Part shown: positions 7,383-51,334 of the stretch, piece by piece
Numbering within the stretch: position 1 is the stretch's first letter
Layout: every line of letters begins with the position of its first letter
Origin: Clavelina lepadiformis
Taxonomy: Eukaryota; Chordata; Ascidiacea; Aplousobranchia; Clavelinidae
Length of the DNA stretch: 64,000 bases
Assembly: GCF_947623445.1 (NCBI RefSeq)
Contig: NC_135244.1
Location: forward strand, 18,290,860-18,354,859
Direction of reading: 5' to 3'
The notes under the pieces: model-generated
The model's input: only the letters and a program-made list of their open reading frames with translations
Database searches by the model: none
What the model was told of the DNA's origin: nothing
Position numbers and translations under genes: made by a program

Positions 7383-8534
7383 TCACGCAACATTCAACCC
7401 ATAAACAGACAACAGGCAGTCGTAGTCGGAACTATCCGGCTGCAATAATTTGTTCTTCGGCGATGACATAATTTCCTCCAGATCTGCAAACGTCTGATCA
7501 TCGGAAGCATTCTCTGGTAAAATATAAGCGTCTGTACAAACACCAGCGTCAAGAAGAATGTTATTTTGCCAAACGCTTTCTCCCACTAAAGGGTATGTAA
7601 CCTGTCGCTTTGAACTAATTTGGTGTTGTTGCTCCACGCTGCCAACGGTGTAAGAGCAGGGATTCCATTGCAAATTAACTTCTGCACGGTGGTGCGCTTG
7701 TGTTTGAAAATTTCTTTTCGTGAAAAGTTGCTCTTTAGAATGAAAAACATCGTTGCTTGCCTGCGAGCCGAAAGCATTAGTTTGAATATACGCCGATTGA
7801 TTTCCTGCAGCACATTGGCGCTCTGAGAAATTAGGATGTTGTAGTACAGTAGATTGCGCTGGTAGAGAGTACGGGATTTGCTGTAAGTATTGTTCGGAAC
7901 AAGCTGTTGGGTTTTGAAATTGGTGAGCTCCGACGGTGGAAGCGCAATGCTGGAGCCCGAGCGATTGTCGATGCATCCTGAAATTGGACTCTTTGGATTG
8001 GGCGGCCGAAAACTCAGTCGGGATTAAATCCGGTCGTGGTCTTGCAGGACATTGATTGCCTGGAATACTTCCAGCTTCCGCTGCTTCCATTGCGTTCATC
8101 ACCACCTCGTCTTCTTCGCGACACCAGAATCTGTTGCGGTCGTTCCAGTCTCGTTTGTCTCTCAAGCAATCTTGGAGGAATTTGATGTAACGAATAGCCA
8201 GCTATATGCATATTAAGGAGAATGTCATGTCTAAGAAACATATTTTACTGAGACGGATAAACATAATTAGGTTTAGGACTGATCTTATACATAACTTAAT
8301 GTGGCAAATAATCTTCATTCGAATATCTTCTTATTTTGCGCAAGAAAAACTTACCTGAAGCGTTTGCTTTTTATGGAGTTTTCTGTTTTGCGTCAATCGA
8401 ATTGGAATGACGCTTTGCAGATCATCGATTGCGTCATTAAACATTCGGAGTCTTTCTCGTTCTTTGCCAGCTGCTTGCGTGCGTCTAATCTTCATTGAGA
8501 CGTTTGAGGTATTTTCAGGACTTTTTCGTTTCAT
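7383..8534 (-). CDS. Class A bHLH transcription factor, copy A (Twist-related-like)
   Basis: Two exons, 8355-8534 and 7383-8201, joined by GT-AG in phase 0, encode 332 residues. Exon 1 carries the basic region, helix 1 and loop (RERERLRMFNDA, then VIPIRLTQNRKLHKKQTLQ). Exon 2 begins with helix 2 (LAIRYIKFLQDCL) followed by a short conserved KRDWNDRNRFWC extension. The rest is Gln/Ser-rich and probably disordered, ending in a conserved C-terminus (SVYGLNVA). The product should bind E-boxes as a dimer in the nucleus. The Asn that usually precedes the RER of class A bHLH proteins is Ala here. Three clustered divergent copies and the helix 2 sequence suggest the ascidian Twist-related (Twist-like 1) family, which specifies mesenchyme; that name is inference. 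The ATG at 8534 is shared with copy B. Confidence 0.88.
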
Positions 8535-16782: not shown

Positions 16783-18522
16783 GTAAATTGTCTACTTTCC
16801 AAATCCCATCGCAGGACTGGTTGGTGTGCACAGGTATCTTATCCAGATCATAGTCTTTCCGTTAAATTTCCGCGGTGTTTCAAGCATCAAAGCACGGTCT
16901 ATTCGGAAGCGCACAGTCGACCACGTAAGTAACTTGAATTAAAGCCTTCACACTTGTGGTCAGAGATTTACCGTCGGAAAAAATACAGAAGTAAAACCAC
17001 ACGCCAGATATTTGCAGAAGTGCTAAAGAAAAACTGACATATAGGCAAATTAGAAAGAAGAAAAAAGTTTTCCTTTTGCTTAAGACAATGATTTTGGTAT
17101 CAAAGGCTTATCAGTTGGTTTGTTATCAACAGACATCATTTGTTATCAAAGCTCTTGATAACATGCATTCAAGCAACGTCGAAATTTTAGACCCTTGTGA
17201 AACGGTATGATTTTCAAAACAGTCTGTAGTTTGCCTGTGCCAGTATTTAAATAAGCTCTTACGTCGTCAGTAAGATATTTGAGTCTTATTTTATATTTAT
17301 AAAACTTGTTCTTTTCATAACGATGAGTATTTAAACCAGGTAAAAACACGCGGAATGAAACGCAAAAGTCCTGAAGATACCTCAAACGTCTCAATGAAGA
17401 ACACGCGCACGCAAGCAGCTGGCAGAGAACGAGAAAGACTCCGATTGTTTAACGACGCAATCGATGATTTGCAAAGCGTCATTCCAATTCGGTTGACGCA
17501 AAGCAGAAAACTCCATAAAAAGCAAACACTTCAGGTAAGTTTTTCTTGTGCAAAATAATAAGATATTCGAATGAAGATTATTTGCCAGATTAAGTTATGT
17601 ATAAGATCAGTCCTAAGCATACCCTTATCGGTTCTCAGTAAAATATATTTCTTAGACATGACATTCTCCTTAATATGCATATAGCTGGCTATTCGTTACA
17701 TCAAATTCCTCCAAGACTGCTTGAAAGGCAAACGAGACTGGAACGACCGCAACAGATTCTGGTGTCGCGAAGAAGACGAGGTGGTGATGAACGCAATGGA
17801 AGCAGCGGCGACAGCTGGAAATATTCCAGGCAATCAAAGTCCTGCAAGGCCACGACAGGATTTAATCCCGACTGAGTTTTCGGCCGCCCAATCCAAAGAG
17901 TCCAATTTCAGGATGCATCGACAATCGCTCGGGCTCCAGTATTGCGCTTCCACCGTCGGAGCCCACCAGTTTCAAAACCCAACAGCTTGTTCCGAACAAT
18001 ACTTACAACAAACTCCATACTCTTTACCACGATCTTCTGTTATTTCCAAGAGTCACTGCGCAGTTGAAAATGATTTGCCATCTGCTGATTTCACCTCACA
18101 ACCAACTTACGGTCTTAGGTATTCGGAGAACATCATTATTCAACACTGCCAACCTCAACAACCACATCGCACGGAGATAAATTTCCGAATGGACACTTGT
18201 AATTCTAGCAACGTGGAGCGACAGAACCGAGTTAGTTTACAGCGAAAGGTTACACACCCTTTAGATGGAGGAAGCGTTTGGCAAAATAACAATTTTGTAG
18301 ACGCTGGTGTTTGTACAGACGCTCATATTTTACCAGAGAATGCTTCCGATGATCAGACTTTTGCAGATCTGGAGGAGATAACGTCATCGCCAAAGAACAC
18401 ATTATTGCAGCCAAATAGTTCCGACTACGACCGCCTGTTGTCTGTTTATGGGTTGAATGTTGTATAATCGTTTTATCGTATTGCTTTGCATTAAAAATAT
18501 GCATGAAAGTATAATGTTCGAT
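16783..18522. repeat. Right arm of the inverted gene duplication
   Basis: Inverted counterpart of 7325-9113. Upstream DNA, exon 1, the intron, the start and end of exon 2 and the 3' flank to about 18522 are closely similar. The middle of exon 2 (about 18025-18240) is strongly diverged, including length differences. Confidence 0.9.
17355..18467 (+). CDS. Class A bHLH transcription factor, copy B (Twist-related-like)
   Basis: Exons 17355-17534 and 17685-18467 join in phase 0 to give 320 residues. Exon 1 differs from copy A at only about six of 60 residues. It contains the basic region and helix 1 (RERERLRLFNDA) and the loop up to HKKQTLQ; exon 2 opens with LAIRYIKFLQDCLKG and KRDWNDRNRFWC. The intron is also closely similar to that of copy A. 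Residues corresponding to about 18025-18240 are very different, while the C-terminus (DDQTFADLEEI to YGLNVV) is nearly the same, a mosaic suggesting patchy gene conversion. An AATAAA at about 18542 is a plausible poly(A) signal. The role is expected to match copy A: nuclear, E-box binding, dimeric. The Twist-related name is inference from family resemblance and the three-gene cluster. Confidence 0.88.
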
Positions 18523-21004: not shown

Positions 21005-22404
21005 ATGACGCGGAACGCAAAGACAAGAGCACGTAGAGGCGAAAAGTGCGGACGCAGAAGCCGAAAACAACCCGCTGAAAGCCATGTCGTGCAGAGGCCA
21101 AACGCGGCAATACGGGAACGGGAAAGATTGAAAATCTTTAACGAATCTCTGGAGGCTTTGCAGAAAGTCATTCCAATACGACTACCTGAAGGAAGAAAGC
21201 TTCACAAGAAGCAAACATTGCAGGTAAACTCAATTTAACGTTTCAAAGCAAACCATGTAAAAAATTACGTTAGTATTTTTTTCTCAACTTTTTTGTTAGA
21301 GTTACCACGTTTCTACCAATTTAGTGTAACTGCTCTAAACCGCCTGACCTAACAGGTAAGCGCTTTTCTGGAATAAAATTTAGTGTAAACGTTTATACAC
21401 GAAAGTTTCGCTCAACAACAGCGACTATGATAATATGATCTTTCTTGGTGTGTCTAAACTTGCATTTCTAACAATTTTTCTATAATTTGTCATATTCAAT
21501 TTCACAGTTGGCATGTCGGTACATTAAGTTTTTACGGGATTGCTTGGACGGCAAACGCGATTGGGATGACAGGCGAAGATTCTGGTGCGGAACAGACGAA
21601 GATCACATGATCGACGCAATTGACACGGCTGCTGCAGCTAATGGAATGGAGTCTGGAGCGCCAAAGACCAGTAACCCTGATCGCCTTACGTTCAAATGCA
21701 CGCCAAAGCAGCGTAGTAGCCCAAGGTTGGACAAAGAACGGTGCAGGATCGAGTGTTCCGAGAAAACCAATAACGTCATAAAGACAGCGGGATTAACACC
21801 TACGTCGTCTTCGGTGTCTACTGAACGGGCTACGATTCACGGTGACGGATTTAACATTCCATGGCACTTAGATATGAACAATTTGCAGAGTGGCACTTTA
21901 AGGAATGCCCTTGCTCAAGATTCTGACGGTTTTAAAGTCAGCTTACAGACTTCTGACACACATTTAGATCACAAGATAAACGTTCAGCTTTCCGCATGTC
22001 CTACACAAACCGCGTTACCGTCTTTTCCATACTATACCGGTAATCTCTGCTTTGATAACCAACCGGGTGCATCAGGAAAAGGACTTCCGCGGATAACAAA
22101 CAGTTACTCGGCTCCTGGCGCAGGAAACCCAATACTGGAAAAATTTCAGACACCACGTCGGGTCCCTCCGATCGTCTTAGTGGCGCCGCCCCAAGGTAGT
22201 GGAATAAATCCCGCAGAAATTGATCCTCCCGTGGACACAACCAGGGATTCGGCGGTGCCCTCGACGAAGTACCAAGCAAGCAGCGGGAGTGATTTCATGA
22301 AAATGCCTTTGCTTGGAGGTTCTCCGTCCCGCTGTTACGGCGATGATGATTTCAACGCAGTTTGGACCGATATTGATGAGATCATTCGCAAGAACGAATC
22401 TTAG
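21005..22404 (+). CDS. Class A bHLH transcription factor, copy C (diverged Twist-related-like paralogue)
   Basis: Exons 21005-21223 and 21508-22404, joined in phase 0, encode 371 residues. The N-terminus is longer and basic (RARRGEKCGRRSRKQ). The bHLH domain reads RERERLKIFNESLEALQ, loop VIPIRLPEGRKLHKKQTLQ, helix 2 LACRYIKFLRDCLDG. It is followed by KRDWDDRRRFWC, the same extension as in copies A and B. The intron interrupts helix 2 at exactly the same codon as in the other two genes, which supports descent from one two-exon ancestor. The rest of the C-terminal part is not alignable by eye with A or B. As in its relatives, Ala stands where most class A bHLH proteins have Asn before RER. Expected to be a nuclear DNA-binding regulator. 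Confidence 0.87.
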
Positions 22405-25800: not shown

Positions 25801-28800
25801 GGTCTTATCCTGAAGTTTCGCGAGTTCGCGATCGGCCTGGGATTCGAACTCGAATCTCTCAGGTGGATCAAGCGCATGTTTAAGTTCCTCCAATTCATAC
25901 GGTTTTTTCGACTACATAAACATTATTAAATTTTTAGTTTTCAAACTATTTAACTTCCCCTTAAATGAAATATATGAATGTACTATGTATGAATGCACAA
26001 CACAAACTAAAATGTATTGGAAACTTCCAACCAATAACATAAAGGTCAACAACTCGAATGGGCATTTACCGATTTTCGCGGGCCGATACTCTTGCGGCTT
26101 TTATTTGCCGTCTTGACTTTTTCACCTTTCCCTGGCTTCGGAGTCACTTGGAGATCCGTCGCAGCCTTTGATGAAAGTTTAGTGCCTGACTGTAGCACGC
26201 CCTATATATTTTTTAAAAGAATTACTTTTAGTTTTCAGTATCTCGCCTCCCCTAACTTACTCTTTCAAATCAAATCAAAAGCACTGGTTGCGTGTAATTG
26301 CCTTAGTGTAAGTAATTTCCACATAAGTTCCTTACCACTGACTCTGCGCCACTTTGTGGTGAGCGGACGCTAGACATAGCACCAACTGGAATTTTGATGG
26401 ACTCTCTGTTTGAGTTGAAATGCAGTGTCACGTTTGATTTGTTGATTACTCGGACGTACATTTCCTTATTCAAATGAAATATGACGCTTTCTTTTAACTT
26501 CCCGCCGTTTTTCGGCCATTCCCACTTTCTTGCCACGGAACCGTTTTCGGTCTTAAGCAGACCACCTTGGTTGGTCAATATTAACCCGGGTACTCCGTTT
26601 TTATGATAGCAGCACGACTGAAAACATACAAAATGAACAGTAAAAGGTTTCGAAACGCTCATATTGTCAATGTTTATTCTCACTACCTTCCCATAAGGAG
26701 TGAAGCTCGCAAGACAGGTCCTGTCTTCATTATTGGCGTAACAAGTAACGTAGAGTTGGTCTGGGGCATCTGGCACAGCACTGGCCATAACTGCAACTTC
26801 GCCATTCTTTGGGTAGCTGCCAAACGTTAAGTATTAAAATTATATGCAGCCTATAACACCTTGTATAGTGTACAGTGTGCGTTCATAAACCAAAACAAAA
26901 ATTTAAATTAGGTGGCAGATTCTCTGTTGAATTAAAAACTGTTGCTGGGCTTACTAGACTGTAATAGATCCGTCGGGCAGCTGGACCATAAACTTCTCTT
27001 TCTCGGCGCTGTCCATCTTGCTCAGCTGCGGAATCTTGGGAACTCCTCCGGATTTTCTTCCAGGAAGGAGCCCGGCGCTAACTGCGCCAGCTCTTCCGTC
27101 CGGCTCATTTCCTTTCCTAGAAAGAAGCAAATTTAACGAGATTTTTCTATAAGATCCTGCAATGCTTTTCTTTGAATGGTTTTCCTGCATGTCCATGAAC
27201 TCCATATTACCTGTACAATTTAAGGAGCGTATCGCGGCGACTGTCTCCATAATTGCGAATCATCATGGGCTTGTCGCATCCATTACTCTTCGCTATCTCC
27301 TCCTCTTCTTCCCTGCAAATGAATCAAAGTTAAATCTGAAACAATGAACGATTGAGCCCCTTCCGCGATGGTAACACAGCCGGTCAAATTTCGTTTTCCG
27401 CAAACCTACTTCTCAATACTTTAACCTACTAGTCGTTTTTGTTAACAATTTTTTAATTAACAATTTTTTTCTGTTTCCTATGCATTTACCGTTTCTTACA
27501 AATAACTATCTTATGTTGAAGTCAACTAAAATTACTTCTGTTTCATGGCTGATTGCAGACGGTTGGTGGCCCACTCCAGTAAATTGCTTTGTTCCAAATC
27601 GGGTTCTGGTTGGGCATTCACGATCCATCCTTCTTCGAACGCTTTCTTTGAGGACAAGTTGAAGCTAAGGGTGGGATTTCCTCCATAACGAGGCAACTTA
27701 TCATCTAGAATCAGCAAACTTTTTTATAAGGCCACTGATTTTTCCCATTATAAGTTGAACTTATAAAAGCAGATTTCAGTTAAAAACCAATCACAAAGTT
27801 AGGCCTAACTGTGATGCAAAATCATTTAAAACTCATGCTTACAGGGTTCTGGCGGTCCCGCAATACTAACATTTGACTTTGTCGACCAGTCTTTGTTTTT
27901 GGATAATCCGGTGACTAAATAAAATGACATTTTCAGTTTTAAACGGCCGGATAAACATGTATTCCAACTAAATTAAATAACAAGTCAAGCTTAATAATAT
28001 ACAGAAAACAATACTGCAACGCATTTAACTGGTAACGATGACAAATAACGAACTTGTGTAACAGTTACACCAAGCAGAAACATAAACTGTATGGTCTGCG
28101 TATCGTACCAGACTTTTTTCTTTCTTCCGGAATAGTTTGCAGTCTTGTTATAGTCTGGCCGTATGCTACTTGCTTGCGAAGTGATGACTTTGAAGGTTGT
28201 TTGTTCAATGTTAATTTGGAAGAAGTCTTATTGGTCTTCATTATTGATTTTATCTCGCTAAGTTGCGGAACCGGAACTGCAGGAACAGGGATGCTTTTGC
28301 TTTGCTGAGTAGAGGTACTTTTCTTTTGCTGAATGTCTTCATCTTTCGTTCTAGGTCCTACGTTGAATATAGATATTGACTAGATGGAAAACTACTAAGC
28401 TTTATATCTGATTAACTTCTTTACGGATTGGGGCTGATAGGCCTACATCTGGCAACCCTACCGGAATCTATTCTAAGCTGCCGGAACTAAATTTGAATGA
28501 ATCTCTGAAATTATTTTACCTTAACCTCTATTCTAACCTGCTGGAACTAAATCTGACTATCTGAAATCTTGTCACCTTTCCTGTTCTTAACAATCAGTAA
28601 AACTTTAGCTTTTACATTAATCTAACTAACTTCATCATCTGTTTTCAGAATTCCTTTTCCTGTTGTCGTACGGTCAAGTGATCTGTGCGCACTGAGAGCA
28701 CTTCACTTCAGTTGACTTTGGAAACTATGCTAAGACAAATATAGACTTATGTTTATTCTTATAGCTAAAAAGAAGTTATTTATACAACCTTGACTTGCAA

Positions 28801-38384: not shown

Positions 38385-39857
38385 CTACCATTTCACATTA
38401 AGAGACAATGTTTCCTCAGTTTCAACAGCATGGTACTGGGTATGCAAAAGTCGCTCAGTCCTTTCACTATCATCTTTAAGATTGTCAAGTTCACGCTTTA
38501 CGTCCTCATTTTCACCAGGTGCAGTGGTTGGAATTTCGTTGTACACCTTTTCAACCATTGCCAAGATGTGTTTCTGTTTCTCACGATCAGCATCATCTTC
38601 TTTTATCTGTCCTCCACCATTCAGGCAACCGGAGGGACATGCCATCACTTCCACAAAGTGATACGGACATTTCCCACGCTTCATCTTCTGCACAAGATTT
38701 TGAATGCTCCGAAAACCGTAAGCGGCGGCAAAATGCAACAAAGTTTTTCCTTCCTCATCTTTCAAAATGACTTCCCGAAAATCCTTGTTGTTTCGCATGG
38801 TTTTGTATATGATCTTGTCAACTGTGATACCAAATAGTTCCTTTGCAGCGCTTCTATAGACGTAGTCAAGGTATCCTCCTGAGCCACCGCCACTGTGGTT
38901 GAGCAACGTTTCATTGCTTAGGTAAGTTGGTTTTAGCTCTTGCACGACTTCAAAATTAACAGAATCTTTTTCATTGAGCAAATGAGCAAGCAACGTGGAT
39001 TCATTTTCTAACATCACTTGTACCTCTCCTGCTGTAAGAACCAAATCAACGTCTCCTGTTGCATAGACATCATTGTAAAAGTCCTGACGAGAAGCTTCAA
39101 GTTTTTTGTCGTAACAGGGCATAATGGCAACATGGTATATTTGGCTTGGTGTTTTACCATAATGTTTAGACAACAACTCTTTGACCAAAGTTCCTGTGAT
39201 CTGCTGAGGTGACTTCACAGTGCTTATATGTGGTATCACAAGCTTTCCATGAGTTTTTTCTGCATAGCAAATCCAACCTGGACAAGATGAAGTTAACATA
39301 GGTAAAGTTTTTGGCATCTTTTCTTTGTTTTTATACCTTTCCATAAATTCTTCAGCACTTTTAATGAGGCCAAGTTCTCTTGTAAATGTTGTATCCAGAA
39401 CAAAACTTGCTCCTAAACGCTTGAAAAAGATAGATAAAGCAAGGGCAGCATTTTTAGCATTTATTGCCTGTTTTACTGCTATTGAAGCCCTTGCTTGTGG
39501 TGATACTGATACCACAATCACCTTTTTCTGGTTTGCACTCGCACTGTTATTTTCTTGAAGAACTTCGTAAAATTTCTCATGACTTTGCATTGCAACCAAA
39601 ACCGTCTCTGCTGAAGTGATGCAGCCACTGCAAGCGAGACAGTCATTTAAAGTTATTTCGGCTTTTTGTAATTTGGTAGACTTTCCGCTGTTTGCATCAA
39701 CAGACAAATAACTTCCATCCTCTGTAATTTCTATTTTACTGCGGCCCTTGCTTGGAGGAGCTTTCTTTATTTGTACCGGTTTGATACATTCTTGCGAAGG
39801 TGTGATAAAATCATTCAAATCAGTCAGTTGCAAAGCACCACTAAAGTGTGATGCCAT
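38385..39857 (-). CDS. CIAO3: Cytosolic iron-sulfur assembly component 3 (CIAO3/NARFL/IOP1), intronless
   Basis: One uninterrupted frame of 490 residues (human CIAO3 is 476). I chose the ATG at 39857 ([18 protein letters not shown]) because it aligns with the vertebrate start; an in-frame ATG five codons upstream (39872) is also present. The iron-hydrogenase-like fold is complete. The N-terminal Fe-S cysteines lie in ECIKP and NDCLACSGC; the H-cluster-type cysteines are in [28 protein letters not shown] and [11 protein letters not shown]; the C-terminus ends in the family's aromatic residue (NVKW), which acts as a targeting-complex recognition tail in many CIA clients and adaptors. CIAO3 links early Fe-S assembly to the CIAO1-CIAO2B-MMS19 targeting complex and supports maturation of cytosolic and nuclear Fe-S proteins, including IRP1. 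It is divergently arranged with the ALAS gene. The lack of introns contrasts with every other large gene in the window. Confidence 0.97.
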
Positions 39858-40858
39858 GGCAAGTTTTCTCAAACACCAACAGTTCTTTTCATATAGGGAT
39901 CAAACAAATAGCACGAAATTTGAATGCAATTCAAGTCTTAGGTCTAACAATTAGATCACAAATTGTTTCTAAAGACAAAAAATATTTGGTTATTCAAAAT
40001 ATAACATTGAACCAAAATATACTTTTATGTTCTACCCATTCTGCCACTAATGCAATACAAACGTTTTTTATAACTCCAGGCTATGTCAAGTACCAGATTG
40101 GAAAGTTTGCTGATTTTCGGTGAGAAATCCTCGCGCAATCAAAATGGAACAATAACCATTATACGTGCACTTAGCAAACTTTCCAATCTTAGTTAAGTGT
40201 AGCCAAACCATTGACAGTTCTATGATAGTCTTGCAGTATACGACTTTATGCAATCTACTTAACGCCATAAGCCATTAGTACCAAAACACATATTTATTAT
40301 TTGGGCTCAATCCCAAGTAGGCCTTTGTAACACATAATTTCACCTTTCGCAGTTACTAAGTTACAGTATGCCTGAATACTGATTGTTTGATCGCAACAAA
40401 GTGATTCCGTGATTTTATTAATCTCTTTAGCCCACACCATAGATATTGTGTTAACACATGTTTATATAATATCTGTAGCCCTCACTTTCGGGATGACGTC
40501 ACCGAATTCTTGCCCACAACATGAAAGAAAGTATAATTAGTTGGCTTTTTAGCGTTTGACGTACCTGTGTTGCTGCATGTCTAGCCTACCTGGAACATAT
40601 ATAAAGTATTGCAGACGAAATAAAGTTATATTTCATTATTATTGGTTTAGTTTTTTTGCTGAAACAAAATCTTTTCACCTTTTATCGTGTAGCATTTGAT
40701 TTATTTGTGGCAGGTTTAACAGTAGAGGCGCTCTTGCTCTATTAATTACTACGTTAGATGACGTAACACGGATAAAATACATACACAAATAGAGGTCAGC
40801 GAAGTTAGATTTAAGAGTTTAAAGTTTAGGTTGGTTAACAAGGAAACAGCGTGGATTA
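39858..40858. promoter_or_regulatory. Shared intergenic region of CIAO3 (-) and ALAS (+)
   Basis: About 1 kb between the CIAO3 start codon and the ALAS IRE. Two TATA-like elements point toward ALAS: TATATAAAG near 40600 and GATAAAATA near 40771. The second would put the cap close to 40800 and the IRE within about 60 nt of it, as in known 5' IRE mRNAs. A CRE-like TGACGTAA lies near 40760. Transcription starts are not proven from sequence. Confidence 0.45.
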
Positions 40859-42600
40859 TCTTGTTCGCTCTCAGTGCAGGGCAACGAGACCAATTTTTTT
40901 CGACTATTGGATCTCGTAAAACAAATTTAAAGGTAAGTTTGGAAATGTTCTTTCATTTTTAGCCCTATGTTCTGAAATATTTTAGACTTTAATAGGCCTT
41001 TGACTACTTAGGCTATGCAGCTATAGCCTAGCTATATAGATTGTTAAGTTTGTGAGAAAGTTTTATATACGTTATTACTGTATTATCATTATGGCCATAA
41101 GTCACAAGCTAAACTTTACCGATACAAGCTACAATGCACAAAGATATATAGGCCAAGTATCATGGGAAATACGAAGCATAGGCCTCCAGGTGTGAACTTA
41201 TCTTGTGATATTTTTGTCAGTTTGTTCTATTGTTTGCCTATTTTAACTATGCACGTTAGTATTTATAATGGAAATTTTATCTAGTATTTCTTTATTTTAA
41301 ACTGTTGTATTTCTACTTAGTGAACGATTATGATTTTAGAGGTGTTCTTTGCTTTTGTAACCTTCTCATAATGGAAAGTATGACAACACTTATCAACATG
41401 CATTTTCTGCTTTTACATGGTCACGCTGATTCTTAATAAAGAAACTGGACAAAGTCGGTTGCTTAAGCATGAATTTATAACAAATAAACAAACAATTAGG
41501 GCTTTAGTATCAGGCCAAAATTTGTGTTTTGTACACATGATTTCTGACTGAAAGCTGACATCATTTTCAGTCAAGCTCTTTTGAGGACCAAGTGCCATGA
41601 TTTTGTCTTTGTTAGTTTACCTCATAATATTTCATCGTAGCTTAAAAAAGACATGATTTTTGGCGGGCTTTTGCTTATTAGACAAGTCACATTTATATAT
41701 GAATTCTGGTTGTTTGCCTACCAACTGTCAAAGGTTTTAGTTATTGAGTACATCAGCTTTTGCTGTTAATTTTTGATTGCTATTTGTTCAGTCATAATGT
41801 TCTGAAAACCAGTCATGTCTAGTCTTATTCCTGGCTTTGTAGTGATAAAACCTTTATTGGTTAGAGATAATGAGCGAAGGCAAAAGTAGACCATCAACTG
41901 TCAATTGTGCACTGTACAGCTAGCAATCTGGGTGGTGCCTGTCAAGCAGTGTTTTCAGCCTAAGGCTGATATTTCTCTTTTTTACTTAGCTGCAGTATAA
42001 TGATTACCTTGTGCATAGAAGTGAACAAAATGATATTTTCCATTTTTGTGAACGTATGAAAGATTTTCTTGTGTCTGCAGCTAGCCAACTATATCATGTT
42101 AGCTCTACCACACTCAAGACTTCACTTTGTTGTGGTGTAGTACTGTAGTGTGCATATATTGTATATCGGTTGACAATTGGTGAAAACTTTGAGTTTTTGG
42201 TTATTATGTGTCATGGACTTAGTCATCTGTCAAGGCATTTTAAATTTATTCTTAAAACAAATTACAGTCAAGGCTTTTTGACTAGGTGCAGTATATATGA
42301 TACTTGACTTTTAGTTTGCTTAATTAGATTTTAGTTATATAATAATTAACCATTATTAACTTCAATACATTTCATGATAATTAAAATTAAACCCAAAATT
42401 AAAATACTGAATATCTTTCAAAGATATATACCATCAATTGTCGTTAACATTCATGGACTAAAAAAATTGTTGTATACATTTTTAGGATCAGAGCATTTGG
42501 AATTGATCAACAATCAAACATCACAAATCCAACTCGCTTCAAATCCTACAAAAAATTTAAATACATTAAAGTAAAACATTCTTTCTGGTCCCGACCAAAC
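40800..42600 (+). other. ALAS 5' untranslated exons and first intron
   Basis: A predicted non-coding exon ends at 40932 (AAAG|GTAAGT, an ideal donor). The intron runs to a strong acceptor TACATTTTTAG at 42485. The second exon begins at 42486 and reaches the ATG at 42601 in the context CAAACATGG. The spliced leader from about 40765 contains no upstream ATG, which suits a translationally regulated mRNA. The 1.55-kb intron shows no gene. The transcription start is estimated. Confidence 0.65.
40859..40889 (+). promoter_or_regulatory. Iron-responsive element (IRE) in the 5' UTR of ALAS
   Basis: Canonical IRE hairpin. The lower stem pairs CTTGTT (40860-40865) with AACGAG (40883-40888), extended by a T-A pair at 40859/40889. 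It has an unpaired C at 40866, a five-pair upper stem GCTCT (40867-40871) with AGGGC (40878-40882), and the hexaloop CAGTGC (40872-40877). All defining features are present: the mid-stem C bulge exactly five pairs below a CAGUGN loop, and full pairing above and below with only two G-U pairs. It lies 44 nt before a perfect splice donor and, after splicing, about 160 nt before the ALAS ATG. In vertebrate erythroid ALAS2 and ferritin mRNAs such an element binds IRP1/IRP2 and blocks translation when iron is low. Confidence 0.9.
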
Positions 42601-45600
42601 ATGGATTCAATAGCAAGCAAGTGCCCTTTTCTAACAAGAGTGTCGAGTCAGTTTTTAAGAAGGGCAGGGCAATCCATTGTGTCCTACGCTAAACGCTGCC
42701 CAGTCATGTCTGAGTACATGACTCATTATGCAGCTTATATGACTATGCAATCTGCTAGGTATGTGCATTTTCCATAGGTTATTTGTTGTTATAAGTTGTA
42801 AACAAATTATTTATCCAATTTAATATTTATTTGAATAGTTTTTAATTTTACGTTCTTTATTAGATTAGTATCATTTAATTTTTCAATTTTAATTCAATGT
42901 GATATTTTAAAAACATGTGTGCAGTTAGATTTCACTGATCTACCTGTAATTAGATTTTGTTATATTTTGTGGTGACATGACATATTTATCTTATCTTTAG
43001 ACCTATTTCTACAACAAGCATAAACACTCAAACTTTGATGAAGAAAGAGAAAGGTAACTTGGTGAAAATTTAACTAAGTGCTTTTTGTTTTCGCTTAACC
43101 TGGTTTATGTAGTTGGTAATTGGTGCAAAGTTTCCTCTGTATTGCGAACCATAGTTGTCATTGAAGCGTTACGTGATCGGTTTCTTTACCCATTCACCAA
43201 CCATTTCCTGTGAGATGGCTTCTGGTAGTTAAGGCGTGATGATTAATTTATTACTTGGTTTAAGGCTTACTTGTTTGCGTTTAAGAATTTTAGTGTATTG
43301 TATACATTTTAGGCGCTTGCTTTGTTTTGGCTTGGTCATTCTTTTTAAACTCTATATCGTTTATATTGTTTATCACCACAATCATGCCGTCTTCGTTTTG
43401 AAAACTGTATTATCTCCATCTCTGTATAAATAATAATCCCTTCAAGTGACCTGTTAATCGGGTAAGCATAATTTAAGCAAAGGTGACGAGTGCTTTTTAC
43501 CAATCTGTATGGCGTCAGTAGAAGCAAATGCATAGCCCGAAAAGTCAAATTCTTTGCATTGTATTCAAGGCCCACATCGCTAAAGCGTGAAACATCAGTT
43601 TATTTTTAACGCTGAATGCTCTTAGAGTATCAATATAATCATCAACCGTTTTTGATTGTCAGCTTAATGCAGGACCCTCAGGCAACATATCCATGATCAT
43701 TGAATAACGCCTTTATTGTTGAAGTGCACGTTTAAAAACACCGACTGTAGTCGATTACAAAAACGTGGGTAGTTAAATAACAATTATTATATCGTTAAAA
43801 TAATGCAATACATTAGCTTGCTAAGCTTCACAACAATTCCGGGATTATCGTTTTCGGCGTTGTTGAAAGAGGTGCACGCCATTTACGTTATCAATTGTAG
43901 CCATAACTAAGCGTTAATTGAATATTGAATTTGCAAAACGGGTAGTAATGCCAGATAACATTTCATTGTGCCAACATTTTTTTGCCATCGTCGTTAATCA
44001 CCAACCTTCAACGCAAGATCAGATTCTCATTTACTACAAAAGTGGCACTCAAGAAACTTAATCACCAAATGACTTAATCACCGCCATTTGCATAGACGCA
44101 ATAACTGTCATGGCTTACTGGATTTTGAGAATCAAAGAAACCGACTCTACCACTTTATTTATCCAGCTTTACCGGGAAATGTTTCCAAAGTTACACCGTG
44201 TGCGAACAAAATGACGGTGCTCAACTGTCCCTTCTTGAATCACGATGTTTCAGTGACGAGAGAGGCGAGTCCCGAAGTGCAGGAGGACATATTTATCGAT
44301 GCCGAAGAGGGAAACGTCGACGCTGGCGTGTTCGCGGCTGATATTTTTCTGGATGCTATCGACGGTAAAACATTTTTGATGATGACGTTATTTTTCTATG
44401 CCTTGTTGCTTGTTTGTCAATATTCAAGAGGTTGGTGCGTAGACGACTTCTCAAAAATTGATTAGTAGCGGTAAAATGAGTTTGTGTGTATTTGCGTAAA
44501 ACGTATTTGAGCTACGCTACTTTTTGTTTGAATACGGTCCCGTTACGTTATTTAGTGAATACTGAACAACCGGATGAACCTTGCTTCACCGGTGACGCGG
44601 TGTTAAACATTGGTATGGTGACGTCATCGGGCGAGGTCTATCCCACTGAGTCTACCGACACTACAGGTAGGATTCGTTGCATTGTTGGGTAACAGTTTGT
44701 GATCGCGTGATAACGCGACAATGAACTAATTGTTGCGTAATCTACACGTAGGTGTCGAGCACTTTAACTATGAGCAATTCATGGCGAAGAAGATTGATGA
44801 GAAAAAGAGCGATCATTCCTACAGGGTCTTCAAAAAGGTATCTGCTTAGATTTTCTTGTTTCATCACTTATCCCACGTTTCGTTTATGTCTTTCATAGTA
44901 GGAGCCTTTTAACCAACATTCAAGTTTTTATAAAATTGTGACAATAAATAACAGCATCAGTAAATAACGAGTCAGAAAAACACAATACTATTAAATGCAC
45001 CAGACTATGTGTTCCAAATAAATATTAACCTTTACGGCTTGTCGGCTTGTATGATTGCGATGTAAAACTTCGATCAGCGTCTCGGGAAAAAAGTCGGTTT
45101 ACAAGAACTCTGTTCAGGCGTAAAAAAACTCCCGTATCTATTTATGTCGTCACGGTATGTCTGTTACGCTTGGCGAATTTGAGACTTTCGACCAATCAAA
45201 TTCATTGTGTTGTGGTCGGAAACGTTGCTTTTTCTGCCTTCTGATTGGTGCAGACGTGCGTTATAAACTTATATTCAAATGAACTCTTGGTAGTTTCGTT
45301 TAACAGTATCTCATCGCATTTTTCGTTTGAAATTCCAGGTCAACCGTCGTGCGGACATCTTCCCTTATGCGGACGATTTTTCATCCAATGCTGAAACATA
45401 CGAGGAACCGAAAAGGGTTTCGGTCTGGTGTAGCAATGACTACCTTGGCATGAGTGGACACCCGAAAGTCTTGAACGATATCAGGTTGGTCATTAATACA
45501 GGTCCTCTCTAAATACCGCTAGAGGACTAACAGAACTAGCAAGCAGTATACCATAGACATCCTGGTTTTCCTTAATTCTCTTAACCTTCTTAGTTCTCTA

Positions 45601-48600
45601 GTGGTATTTAGAGATTTCCGTTAATACATAGCTTGGTCCTATTCAAAGTGATAGGCAAGTCTAAAAACGAGTTAATTTTATATGAAAGAACATTGCTCAC
45701 TGAATATTCTGGCAAAATAGTTTTGAAAAATAATTTTTGGTTAGGTAATTATAAGCAAAAGAAAATCGCAAAATTGGCGTTAATTGTGACGTAAATCAAG
45801 GCTCTTGTGATGTTATACGTAATCACAGACAATATTCGCAAATTCATAAGTTTAGCTGTACCTACTGTCGATCACGTATGACTTGTATGTATCTGTTACA
45901 GCTGTATAGATTGCTCTAACTGCCAATAGCTGACAGCTTATAGCCCAACCACGGCAACCAGTACGTTACCAGTTTGACGGGTAGCATATGCGGCCCAAAG
46001 GATACCGACTGCGGGATTTTTTATGTTGAAAACAATCGTTTGTAATTGCATAATTTTTAATTACAGTGCTTCACGTTGCTAATTTCTTCACCTTACGTCT
46101 AATTGGACGTAGGCTAAACTCATACGACCTACAGTCCTACACTTTTGACTTCAGTTGACTACCGCGCATGGAAAGCAACAACAACAGCATGTTGTCAAGC
46201 ACCTTGGCTAATCTATGACATAACAACACTCTTGATCTATCTCACAAATGAAGGCCAAAACTGAGATTTTTTGCAATTTTCTTTCGCCGATAACTACCTA
46301 ACCACAAATTATTTTTCCAAAATATTTTACCGGAATGTTCAGTTAATAGTGTTCTTTTTTATAAGATCAACTTGTTTTTGGATTTGCCCATCACTCTAAG
46401 GTTCATTTAACTAGCGTACCATGAAAAGCATATCGCAGTGCAACCAAATTGTAGCCAGTTGTAAAACTATCACAATCGGATGATCAATAAATAGGTTAAT
46501 GGAATCAACAACAGCGCCTTAAATGTTGCTTGACCTAATATTTATAATATATTTATCTAGCTGTGGTTGTAAAAAAAATTGTAAGTCACACACATGTTGC
46601 TACAATCTCATGTTTCAATATCACAGCGACACCATCGGAAAATACGGCGCCGGTGCCGGGGGAACGCGCAATATCGCCGGAACATCATCTCTTCACGAAA
46701 ACTTGGAATCGGAGCTCGCAGATCTTCACGGAAAGGAATCCGCTCTGCTCTTTTCTTCTTGCTTCGTTGCCAACGACTCAACACTTTTCACTTTGGCTAA
46801 AATGTTGCCAGGTTTGTTGGACTCGAATGTTTTGTAAAAAAATGGGCAACCGCGGCAACCAGTGGCCCGCGGGCCGCACTGCGGCCCGCCAGGTTGTTCC
46901 GTGCGGCCCGCGTGGTGCTCAGCAAAATGTTAGAACTTCATACTAGCCATCACTATTTCATGCAGTTTACATCAAAGCAATGGAAATTTTCGCACGCTGT
47001 GTATAGAAATATTGCCTTTTGTGATGCAACAATGCTGCGTTGCATAATTTCGCAATGCGAGATTAGCACTTTGAAAAAGCTGTGTGGCATTGTACAGTAC
47101 CGCACAAGTGTGTCGTGGACTGCATTAAATCTATTTCTTAACTACATAAACTGCATAGGAAAGTCGTTTTACGATACTAATTTTTTCTGAAAAAATCATG
47201 TGGCCCGCGTTGTCATTCAACATTTTGTATTTGGTCCTCCAGTGAAAAAGGTTGCACATGCCTGCTCTAGAGTCTAGACGCACTACACCTCATCAGAACA
47301 GCGTCTGAACATCGTTTGTCGTTGTATTTTTGATTGCATCGGGTTTTCGTATTATGACGGTTGGTTATTAGTTGCATGTTAGTAATATGGTTTATTCATG
47401 TTGTTTTGTTCACGCAAAACATGCGCATGATTTGCTGACGATGATTGCCTAAAGCCTTTGCAAGATACAGATTTCTCTTTTTACTAGTTATTTTGCTTGG
47501 AAAACATTCAAAATGACGTCAAAATTTCTGTTAACTCGCACTGTCAATGCTCTTCGAGTCAAGAAAGTTCATAGGACGCCTTTGGCCCGTTTGAAAATTC
47601 TTGGTCTGCACAACCCAGGCGGCGGCAGGCCTATTATTTAATCTCTATCTTTTTTAGAGTAAGGCTGTTTACGTTATTAGATGCAAGCTTAACTTGTCCA
47701 AATACGCGTAAAATAGGTTGCTGATACGGTAATGACAGGTTAAACTTAAAGAAATATTGTAATTTTTGGACGTTTTTGTGGAAGCGAATCTTCCTCCAAT
47801 ATCTAAAACAGACTGGAAAAATTTGATTTACCCTTGTGATCAGGATTTGCTGCGAGACCCAATTGATTGATGGAATGCTGCTGTAACTTAAAACTTCAAA
47901 AGCAATCTTAATCGTTAAATATATTGCCGGTGCTCACTTTTCGTAGGCGGTTGTGGTTTTATTGCTTTTGTTCTTGGACATTTTTGATAAAATGCCTTTT
48001 ACTTCACGACATTAACATAAAAAGCTTTTCGTATTTTTGTATGTGGTCACCTTCCGCATATTGTGTGATAACATTTCAGCCATTTACAGAGAAATAATGT
48101 CGTTAACGTGAAACCAGTTAAAACAAGTTTTATCTGCCTGTTTGTACACGTGATAGGCCAAATCTTGCAGAACCACTTTTCAGCCATGTTTTTGCCACAA
48201 ATTTAATCACGCGAACCACTCTTAATCGAATCGTTGTAAATCGGTTTATCTTGTGACGTCACTTATATTCACATGAGTCCATTTTATCGACGATTCGGGG
48301 TAGCGATGTGTGACGACTAAATAAACACAATGTGGCGCTACTTCCGAAAAAATATCGAACTTTTATTTATTTTTAGAGTTTATTTAGGTCCATAGTTGTT
48401 TCGTTGTGCAATGTACAAACTTTTTTAAGGCCTATTGTACATCGTACGCTAACGGCTGTTTTCATTACTTTAATGGAGAGAAGAACAGTGAGGCTTTCGC
48501 TACCATAATCATGACAAAACAAATAAAAGTACGTCACCTATTCACAAAATTAGGAGTGTATAAATAGTTAAATACATCTTAGAAGAAGATTTATTTCCAT

Positions 48601-51334
48601 CTTCCATCGATACAAAGGAAGTCTACTGCCATAAACAGTTTAAAGACTTTTCTTATCCATAAATAGATTTGTTCTGCGAACTCAGCTCTCTGTCACAGAT
48701 AAATACGCGTTAAATCGCTCACGAATTGCAAAGTTTTATTTGCTCAGCGGTACATTTCGCTAAGTCACCGTGACGTAACTGTCAGGGAAGACCGATGATT
48801 TTACGCGTATTTAGATCGTGTTGCCGGTACCCGCGTACCAATTTCGCGGGCGTATTTTTGTCATTTCGTGAATACTTTGTTGTCTTCATGCACCTGTCTT
48901 AAATATTAGGTGTAAAGTTGGAATGCGTTGCTTAACAGCCAGTCCGGATTTTGACATTTCCTTTCATTTATTAACTGACATTATGTCTTTGAAGACAAAC
49001 ACAATGAGGTACCAATGTTTACTGTGCAGTACTGATATGAAAGGATTGCACGTGTTCAAACAGTTTCTGTGAATTAATTGAGGTCCAATTTGCCCCGTAT
49101 TGCCTGCGAATAAGTTAACCGTGCACCGACCTATTCGTTAACAACATTAACGTGGTATTTTTTCCAGGATGCGAGATTTATTCGGATGCTGGGAATCACG
49201 CTTCTATGATCCAGGGAATTCGTAACAGCGGAGTTCCAAAGTTTGTCTTCCGTCACAACGATCCCGGTCACCTGCAGGAACTTCTACGACGATCGGATCC
49301 ATCGAAGCCAAAGATCGTCGCTTTTGAAACGGTTCACTCAATGGATGGTAAGATGCCCGTCGTTCAGTTCCTCTTTATCTCTTTCCGATATCAACTTGCT
49401 TGTATTCTTGGAACAAAGACTGCTTTTCTACAAATTCTCGGTTTATTTTGTTCTTTTTCCTTTTTGGTTTTTCTTTTCCTGGCAATAGTTTTACCGAGAA
49501 TTCATCTTCGAAGAAATACTCTTTAAATCGCCACTTTCCGCTGCACAGGTGCGGTCTGTCCACTCAAGGAACTATGCGATGTTTCGCACAAGTACGGAGC
49601 GATAACATTCGTGGATGAAGTGCACGCGGTTGGCTTGTATGGGGAGAGAGGAGGCGGAATTGGGGAGAGAGATGGTTTGATCAACGAGATCGACATCGTT
49701 TCCGGAACTCTCGGTGTGGTTTTACGAAACCTTTTTGAAAATAGCTGCACGACTTTATGTAAAGAATCGAATCGACGAAAAATCACAAATTTATTTCGAG
49801 CCTCATTTTAGACTAGATTTCAGTCTATGAGATTAATCTCAAAATTTATCACAAATTTCACACCGTATAAAACGAATAAAATCAAAACCAATATGACATG
49901 TTTCAAAAGTTTGATGAACCTGATTATGTTTGATTATTTCCAGGTAAAGCTTTCGGCAACGTAGGCGGCTACGTCGCCAGCACATCTCTGCTGATCGACA
50001 TGATCCGGAGTTACGCGGCTGGATTCATCTTTACTACCGCTCTTCCCCCCATGAACGTTGCAGGTGCTCTTGCCGCCGTCCAGATTCTGAAATCGGAGGA
50101 AGGACAGGTTCTCCGCTCCCAGCATCAGCGGAACGTCTCCATGATGAGGAAGATGTTGATGGCTGCTGATCTCCCGCTTGTTCACTGCCCAAGCCACATC
50201 ATCCCTATTCAAGTGAATTGAATTTATCTTCTGTATCTTTATCAGAGGTGATAGTTTCACTTGCTGGGAAAGGATTTTATTATATTCACGTGTTCCATAC
50301 CGACCTTTACCTTGTTGATGAATGACTGCTGCTAATGCTTCCAGTCATGTCGTTTTAGCTGTGAACACTGATTTCAATACTTTCGAGTGTTAAAGTTTTC
50401 AAAGAATCATGTAACTATCTTTTGTCTTTGTCTTGATGCTTTTTTATGCATTTAAAGATATTATCCGCATTTCTTCTTATAATTGTCTACCTTCTACATC
50501 GTTATCAAGATCTCGCCATCTGTGTATTAACCTGCAATGACGTCATTTACGACGTTAAAGCAGTTGTAGTTAGATTTTTTAATAACTTTTATTAGCCTGA
50601 AACTATGATCTTGTGAAGGTTGGCGACCCAGAGAAGAACACCCAGTTGTGTGACATTCTCTTGCGGAAGTACGGCATCTACGTTCAAGCCATCAATTTTC
50701 CGACCGTGCCACGTGGACAGGAAATGCTGCGAGTGGCGCCAACGCCAGGTCATAGTCTCTCGATGATGAGGTTAGTCAACAATTTCCTACTTATACCAGT
50801 CATTTTAACTCGGGCTATCTAGCAGACATTGAATTACCGAGACTGGCCATTAATGCCAGAAATAAACTTAATTTACAATTTATATCAAGGAAAAGCTTAA
50901 ATGGCGTTTAATGACCGATATGGCTTGAAATATTTTAAATAGGCTGTTTCTATCAATTGTTGACTAAATACATAGTTCCAACGATTCATTTGCATTGTTT
51001 ACCTTCTGATTACGTGTTTGGTCTACGGCGTAACTAGGGGTTAAAGATAACGCAGGTAACTGTTCTAGGCTCCTATTTTAACAGCCTCTTTCTATGACTA
51101 GTTAATAATTGATTAGTGATAACAATGAACAAGCAGCAAACACCAACAATCACTTCGCGCAGGTATTTCGTGGAGAGCCTGCGAGCTGCTTGGACTGATG
51201 TTGGTCTTTCTGCTCCTGAGCCCCACCCCGCGGAAACATGCGAGTACTGCCTCAAGCCGGTTCAGTTTGAGTTGCTGTCAGCCCGCGTTCGACTCTCTGC
51301 CTTTCTACCTCGGCAGCAAGCAGTAGCTGCCTAG
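42601..51334 (+). CDS. ALAS: 5-aminolevulinate synthase, mitochondrial
   Basis: Twelve coding exons: 42601-42758, 43001-43053, 44167-44364, 44556-44666, 44752-44837, 45339-45484, 46627-46811, 49168-49347, 49549-49713, 49944-50212, 50619-50770 and 51163-51334. They total 1,875 nt, 624 residues, with all phases matching. It catalyses the PLP-dependent condensation of glycine and succinyl-CoA, the first committed step of heme synthesis in the mitochondrial matrix. The N-terminal presequence carries heme-regulatory CP motifs SKCPFL and KRCPVM, with a third, LNCPFL, in exon 3. The catalytic core has [21 protein letters not shown] (PLP Asp) and SGTLGKAFG with the Schiff-base Lys at the exon 9/10 border. 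The C-terminal extension of animal ALAS is present ([14 protein letters not shown]). A single gene of mixed type: CP motifs as in ALAS1 and ALAS2, plus a 5' UTR IRE as in ALAS2. Introns 6 and 7 hold transposon relics. An AATAAA near 51956 is a possible poly(A) signal. Confidence 0.97.
45506..45614. mobile_element. Miniature inverted-repeat element in ALAS intron 6
   Basis: A 109-bp sequence bounded by inverted repeats TCTCTAAATACC(G/A)CTAGAG, 18 of 19 positions matching, just 21 bp after the exon 6 donor. No coding capacity; the superfamily is not assigned. Confidence 0.6.
45640..46400. mobile_element. Foldback element with arms of about 200 bp in ALAS intron 6
   Basis: Two imperfect inverted arms, about 45640-45835 and 46205-46400. 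Shared blocks include AAAAATAATTT followed by GGTTAGGTA, GAAAGAAAAT-like and CTGAA(T/C)ATTC stretches in opposite orientation. The centre is about 370 bp of unrelated sequence. This is the layout of a long-inverted-repeat MITE or foldback element with ancient divergence between arms. No transposase is seen. Confidence 0.65.
46840..47268. mobile_element. Degenerate hAT-like element in ALAS intron 7
   Basis: It starts near GGGCAACC followed by an unusually GC-rich GTGGCCCGCGGGCCGCACTGCGG tract cluster. It ends with the inverse of CAGGCATGTGCAACCTTTTTCACTGG. These are signatures of hAT non-autonomous elements, which commonly carry GCGGCCCGCGGGCC near their tips. The left terminus is eroded and no target duplication is clear. 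It begins about 30 bp after the exon 7 splice donor. Confidence 0.6.

Follow-up and report, generated by a model that had tools for sequence, protein, structure and literature searches.

A probable ALAS2-type iron-responsive element in the leader of the ALAS gene of the tunicate Clavelina lepadiformis

The ALAS gene of the tunicate Clavelina lepadiformis, a member of the Aplousobranchia (PMC10884593), is preceded by a hairpin that resembles an iron-responsive element (IRE). This raises the question of whether the hairpin is a genuine 5′ IRE of the gene and whether it shares its origin with the IRE of vertebrate ALAS2, for which control by iron through IRP1 is described as established (PMC3904948). 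We analysed a 64-kb window of chromosome 5 (positions 18290860-18354859), together with other parts of the genome; positions below are those of the window unless a contig is named (Table 1). We conclude that, very likely, the hairpin is a genuine 5′ IRE of the single ALAS gene found, shares an ancestral element with the vertebrate ALAS2 IRE, and is controlled by IRP1. At low iron, IRP1 without its Fe-S cluster would bind the CAGUGC loop and the bulged C, blocking translation of ALAS; with plentiful iron, IRP1 would take up the cluster and release the ALAS mRNA, and heme synthesis would track iron supply. We infer that the exon carrying the hairpin is retained in ALAS mRNA, near the cap, and that the hairpin forms there and binds IRP1.

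A hairpin with IRE grammar ahead of ALAS

A canonical IRE has a CAGUGN loop (where N is not G) on a 5-bp upper stem, an unpaired C 5 nt 5′ of the loop, and a paired lower stem; it lies in a UTR of the mature mRNA, near the cap if it is a 5′ IRE, and is bound by IRP. In the Clavelina hairpin, a CAGTGC loop is carried by five upper-stem pairs (GCTCT with AGGGC), one of them G-U, followed by the unpaired C40866 and by seven lower-stem pairs (TCTTGTT with AACGAGA), again with one G-U (T40862-G40886). The initial annotation had stated that the hairpin obeys the IRE rules, and both reading and folding bear this out, with a lower stem of seven pairs. Folded alone, positions 40857-40890 have exactly the IRE structure as their minimum-free-energy structure (-12.5 kcal/mol, z -3.08, with 2 of 200 shuffles as stable). 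The folding energy of a 61-nt stretch around the IRE is ordinary (z -0.99, with 35 of 200 shuffles as stable); hence, the weight of the case rests on motif grammar rather than on stability. We scanned for that grammar, defined as a C bulge, a 5-bp upper stem, CAGTGH and at least four of the first five lower-stem pairs. Across the window and 19 other genomic loci, the only full match was the hairpin at 40859-40889. There were no full matches on either strand of 60 Markov copies of the window, in which the bulge, upper stem and loop alone occurred 0.033 times per copy. In a single-strand Markov simulation of 209 Mb, bulge, upper stem and loop came together 220 times, never with a 5-bp lower stem.

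Table 1. Features of the ALAS locus (window positions)
Feature	Position	Strand	Details
Iron-only-hydrogenase-like ORF	38388-39857	-	490 aa; PF02906, 218.8 bits; divergent from ALAS
CRE-like site	40494		TGACGTCA; motif match only
CRE-like site	40557		TGACGTA; motif match only
CRE-like site	40759-40765	+	TGACGTA; motif match only
TATA-like site	40772-40779	+	ATAAAATA; motif match only
Putative 5′ non-coding exon 1	40803-40932	+	Start guessed from TATA-like site; donor AAG/GTAAGT at 40932/40933
Candidate IRE hairpin	40859-40889	+	
Lower stem of IRE	40859-40865/40883-40889	+	
Unpaired C of IRE	40866	+	
Upper stem of IRE	40867-40871/40878-40882	+	
Loop of IRE	40872-40877	+	CAGTGC
IRE core	40863-40885	+	23 nt; 21/23 identical to human ALAS2 IRE
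Downstream hairpin	40884-40917	+	11 pairs, one bulge; ACGAGA (40884-40889) common to IRE lower stem
Putative intron 1	40933-42485	+	Acceptor ATTTTTAG/GATCAG
Exon 2	42486-42758	+	Rest of leader, start codon at 42601, presequence with two CP motifs (KCPFL, RCPVM)
ALAS coding region	42601-51334	+	12 exons, 624 aa
ALAS coding exons 1-6	42601-42758, 43001-43053, 44167-44364, 44556-44666, 44752-44837, 45339-45484	+	
ALAS coding exons 7-12	46627-46811, 49168-49347, 49549-49713, 49944-50212, 50619-50770, 51163-51334	+	

Splice sites of the ALAS gene were chosen by hand to keep the reading frame. The joined protein has no internal stop, scores 619.6 bits against TIGR01821 (cut-off 338.55), and finds its best PDB match in human erythroid ALAS (675 bits). 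A third CP motif, NCPFL, is encoded in the third coding exon. A genome search with this protein returned 17 matches, 11 of which lie within the ALAS gene. The remaining six, at 29-48% identity (two on contig C3, three on C4, and one at C5:6437288), are presumably related acyltransferases such as serine palmitoyltransferase. We thus found a single copy of ALAS, in agreement with its apparent single status in the initial annotation.

Ahead of the coding region, the donor at 40932/40933 scores 7/7, is one of two such sites on the plus strand of the 64-kb window, and lies 43 nt past the hairpin; the next-best donor within 40701-42601 scores 5. Two other AGs in 42300-42600 have a pyrimidine share equal to or higher than that of the acceptor at 42485, and our choice of acceptor is tentative for this reason. 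Since there is a TATA-like site at 40772, our guess is that transcription starts near 40803, ~56 nt before the hairpin. There is no ATG in 40759-40932 or in 42487-42600, such that the first ATG is that at 42601. Placement of the hairpin in a predicted leader free of upstream ATGs, as first annotated, therefore holds, the exon being a gene model in which the hairpin-bearing sequence would be spliced to ALAS.

Searches with covariance models, one of the checks named alongside the initial annotation, gave a divided answer. Rfam 15 reported no IRE in the window at the gathering threshold, and the ALAS hairpin went unreported at E up to 10 in searches of 351 nt and of 71 nt. Since the ferritin hairpins of the same genome score 21.2 bits against a 34-bit cut-off, this miss probably reflects a strict, ferritin-weighted model. 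Our own covariance model, R1, was built from five human IREs, none of them from ALAS. In 100 kb made up of the window and four ferritin stretches, R1 ranked the ALAS hairpin first with 22.8 bits and E 0.0021, ahead of a next hit with 11.3 bits and E 5.9, E-values of a model of this type being rough. R1 is a narrow model, since it did not report the genome's own ferritin hairpins in the same 100 kb. A genome-wide search with RF00037, in which 82 of 83551 candidates were scored, listed four weak places; R1 found nothing in three of these and scored 12.0 bits (E 1.2) in the fourth (L011). On the minus strand of the IRP1 locus described below, R1 scored 13.5 bits (E 0.39). A loose IRE pattern applied to the whole genome did not discriminate (34510 + 36384 matches vs 29734 + 30447 in the reversed control).

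Likeness to the ALAS2 element of vertebrates

The human erythroid ALAS IRE is GUUCGUCCUCAGUGCAGGGCAAC (PMC12845348; given in gapped form in PMC2413145) and is placed at NM_000032:13-36, in the 5′ leader (PMC2413145). We compared the 23-nt core of the Clavelina hairpin with this element and with seven other IREs, namely those of FPN, TFRC (three), mACO, human ferritin and Clavelina's own ferritin. The seven match the core at 8-12 of 23 positions. Outside CAGTG and the bulged C, the core has the human ALAS2 letter at 15 of 17 positions, as against 3-6 of 17 for the seven others (5/17 for the ferritin hairpin of the same genome and 4/17 for human ferritin). The Clavelina hairpin thus has letters specific to the ALAS2 type beyond the general IRE grammar. 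The two differences from the human element only move the G-U wobble to the neighbouring upper-stem pair, so that all pairs are kept. When random hairpins were forced to conform to IRE grammar, 63 of 2,000,000 reached 21/23 against human ALAS2. No second place within three mismatches of the core occurs in the 209-Mb genome (reversed control, 0), and no 23-mer in the 209-Mb Markov simulation matched the human element at more than 18 of 23 positions. This closeness to human ALAS2 suggests that the Clavelina IRE is of the ALAS type and shares its ancestry with the human one, as would be expected had the element arisen before ALAS1 and ALAS2 separated.

The Clavelina hairpin and the vertebrate ALAS2 IRE thus have in common, besides the core letters, a C bulge, a 5-bp upper stem, the CAGUGC loop and a position in the 5′ leader, which for Clavelina is a predicted one. 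They differ in the two swapped upper-stem letters, in a distance from the cap that for Clavelina is a guess, and in the setting: in Clavelina the element lies on a single, unduplicated ALAS gene that also encodes three CP heme motifs. With the ferritin 5′ IRE (Rfam RF00037, IRE_I) the ALAS hairpin shares the CAGTGN loop and the bulged C; however, it has a simple C bulge, whereas ferritin IREs have an internal loop at that place.

IREs on invertebrate ALAS genes have been described before. Tzou et al. (2014) report high-quality IREs in the ALAS leaders of one of two chordates (a tunicate) and of the one echinoderm surveyed (a sea urchin), predict IREs in three of four teleost ALAS1 leaders, and propose that a common ancestral ALAS had both an IRE and heme motifs (PMC3904948). 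The same article cites an earlier report of a Ciona ALAS IRE by Piccinelli and Samuelsson (2007), in wording that is muddled as to Ciona, which is a tunicate. Going by these descriptions, the tunicate and sea urchin elements resemble that of Clavelina in being leader IREs on the ALAS of invertebrate deuterostomes. Clavelina, from the Aplousobranchia, is another tunicate than those in the earlier reports, and among the matches listed for the open-licence literature we found no report of a Clavelina ALAS IRE.

These publications bear directly on the evolutionary reading in the initial annotation. Its proposal that the IRE predates the ALAS1/ALAS2 split fits the 21/23 match and is not new, having been put forward in PMC3904948. 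Its assumption that among vertebrates a 5′ IRE is confined to ALAS2 is contradicted by the teleost ALAS1 predictions in that article; because three of four teleost ALAS1 leaders have predicted IREs, loss from ALAS1 can apply at most to part of the vertebrates. The interpretation is thus largely right and already published, with Clavelina providing a fresh instance and, from its letters, a case for shared descent: the 21/23 identity with all pairs kept is letter-level evidence for a single origin of the ALAS IRE in tunicates and the ALAS2 IRE in vertebrates. KCPFL, RCPVM and NCPFL of the Clavelina protein all conform to HRM_t, a heme-regulatory motif defined in PMC3904948 and reported there for 3/3 chordate, 2/2 echinoderm, 19/19 vertebrate ALAS1 and 7/14 ALAS2 proteins. 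The Clavelina ALAS gene pairs the IRE with three motifs of the type present in every vertebrate ALAS1 surveyed there. The presence of both on one ALAS makes a division of labour after duplication testable, with iron control passing to ALAS2 and heme feedback to ALAS1.

Fate of the hairpin in the ALAS transcript

We weighed the genuine-IRE reading against three others. The first, that the hairpin arose by chance or took on IRE form independently of the vertebrate ALAS2 element, could draw on the ordinary folding energy of the 61-nt stretch and on the lack of an Rfam match; however, with no full-grammar match in either the Markov windows or the 209-Mb simulation, with so few grammar-conforming random hairpins as close to human ALAS2, and with the hairpin sitting ahead of ALAS, we consider it extremely improbable. 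The same identity to human ALAS2 bears on the fate of the exon. At up to two mismatches, the genome has 1677 sites with a Ciona-type spliced leader and GT directly after it, as against 38 in a reversed control; among the matches listed, all but 12 sites are on contig C6, mostly 745 bp apart. At C6 ~12.139-12.226 Mb, this Ciona-type leader, ATTCTATTTGAATAAG, is repeated mostly at 745-bp spacing and followed by GTAAGT; these repeats are probably SL RNA genes of Clavelina. With a spliced leader encoded in the genome, exon 1, and with it the IRE, could be lost through trans-splicing: the ALAS pre-mRNA would receive the leader at the acceptor of exon 2 (42485), leaving the mature mRNA without the hairpin. 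In Ciona, at least 58% of expressed genes are reported to receive this leader (PMC7986045). Against such an outron, a 7/7 5′ splice site lies between the hairpin and the acceptor, where an outron would need none, and an excised outron leaves the 21/23 identity unexplained. We regard removal of the hairpin by trans-splicing as improbable.

A further reading keeps the IRE in the mRNA and holds it in a competing fold, making it weak or conditional. It is compatible with the genuine-IRE reading, and the probabilities that we attach to the two overlap. The downstream hairpin and the IRE lower stem are mutually exclusive, and positions 40883-40917 fold at -11.4 kcal/mol, with 0 of 500 shuffles as stable. 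In the joined leader, extended 60 nt into the coding region from each of six assumed starts, the lower stem of the IRE had a mean pair probability of 0.00-0.02 and the upper stem one of 0.06-0.67, at least partly because the downstream hairpin takes the shared ACGAGA. The lower stem thus has seven pairs in isolation and is disfavoured in the long leader fold. Of the two starts tried, imposing the IRE cost 3.0 kcal/mol with one and 1.4 kcal/mol with the other, and the cost was 2.3 kcal/mol in 40855-40932, such that the competing hairpin wins in silico. However, the minimum-free-energy structure of the competing fold retains the IRE upper stem and loop, albeit at the ensemble probability given above; binding of IRP to an IRE is tight and would probably pay the energy cost; and predictions are uncertain for leaders as long as this one (some 200-270 nt). 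Hence, we think it unlikely that the element is weakened in this way. The exclusive pairing also allows a two-state switch, in which IRP or another factor would flip the leader between the IRE and the 11-pair hairpin, on an ALAS still under both iron control and heme feedback, before these were divided between ALAS2 and ALAS1; we offer this as a speculative and rather improbable extension.

IRP1, ferritins and neighbouring genes

The genuine-IRE reading calls on IRP1, and an aconitase-family gene lies at C4:16859085-16870364. Its joined exons gave 493 residues, part of the gene, and this piece scores 758 bits against rabbit and human IRP1, 677 bits against IRP2 and 80 bits against mitochondrial aconitase. 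It is thus closer to IRP than to mitochondrial aconitase. Cysteines are kept at the places of C437, C503 and C506, which we take to be the cluster cysteines of IRP1, the numbering being by count. Weaker aconitase matches at C4:546177-550725 are probably mitochondrial aconitase.

As a positive control for an IRE system in this genome, we examined its ferritins. Three tandem ferritin genes lie at C5:6062858-6074300, two of which have a near-identical, IRE-like leader hairpin (TTGCGTCGTCAGTGAACGAACGG) ahead of the first coding exon, with CAGTG at C5:6065358 and 6073074, ~120 nt upstream of the presumed start ATG. These are weaker IRE-like hairpins than that of ALAS: each reaches the 21.2 bits quoted above with RF00037 (E 1.7), below the cut-off, and has four of five upper-stem pairs, with G-A at one position. 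The ferritin hairpin stretch does not take the IRE fold as its minimum-free-energy structure, and 115 of 200 shuffles are as stable (z 0.29). We detected no C-bulge match in 26 kb searched for the third tandem ferritin, or in 10 kb surrounding a ferritin-like match on C9.

Within the window, the iron-only-hydrogenase-like ORF, which we take to be CIAO3/NARFL-like, stands head-to-head with ALAS, with ~950 bp separating its ATG from our guess of where ALAS transcription starts and the three CRE-like sites in between. These two iron-linked genes might share a promoter. We considered the hairpin as part of this divergent minus-strand gene and rejected the assignment, since that gene reads the other strand. 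Elsewhere, three related ORFs at 7383-8201 (minus strand), 17685-18467 (plus) and 21472-22404 (plus) have in common a motif like YIKFLxDCLxxKRDW and no Pfam match at E 0.001; judging from this likeness, they appear to be a local gene family with one copy on the opposite strand. Positions 26306-26833 on the minus strand contain a piece of a FAM194-domain gene (PF14977, 65.3 bits).
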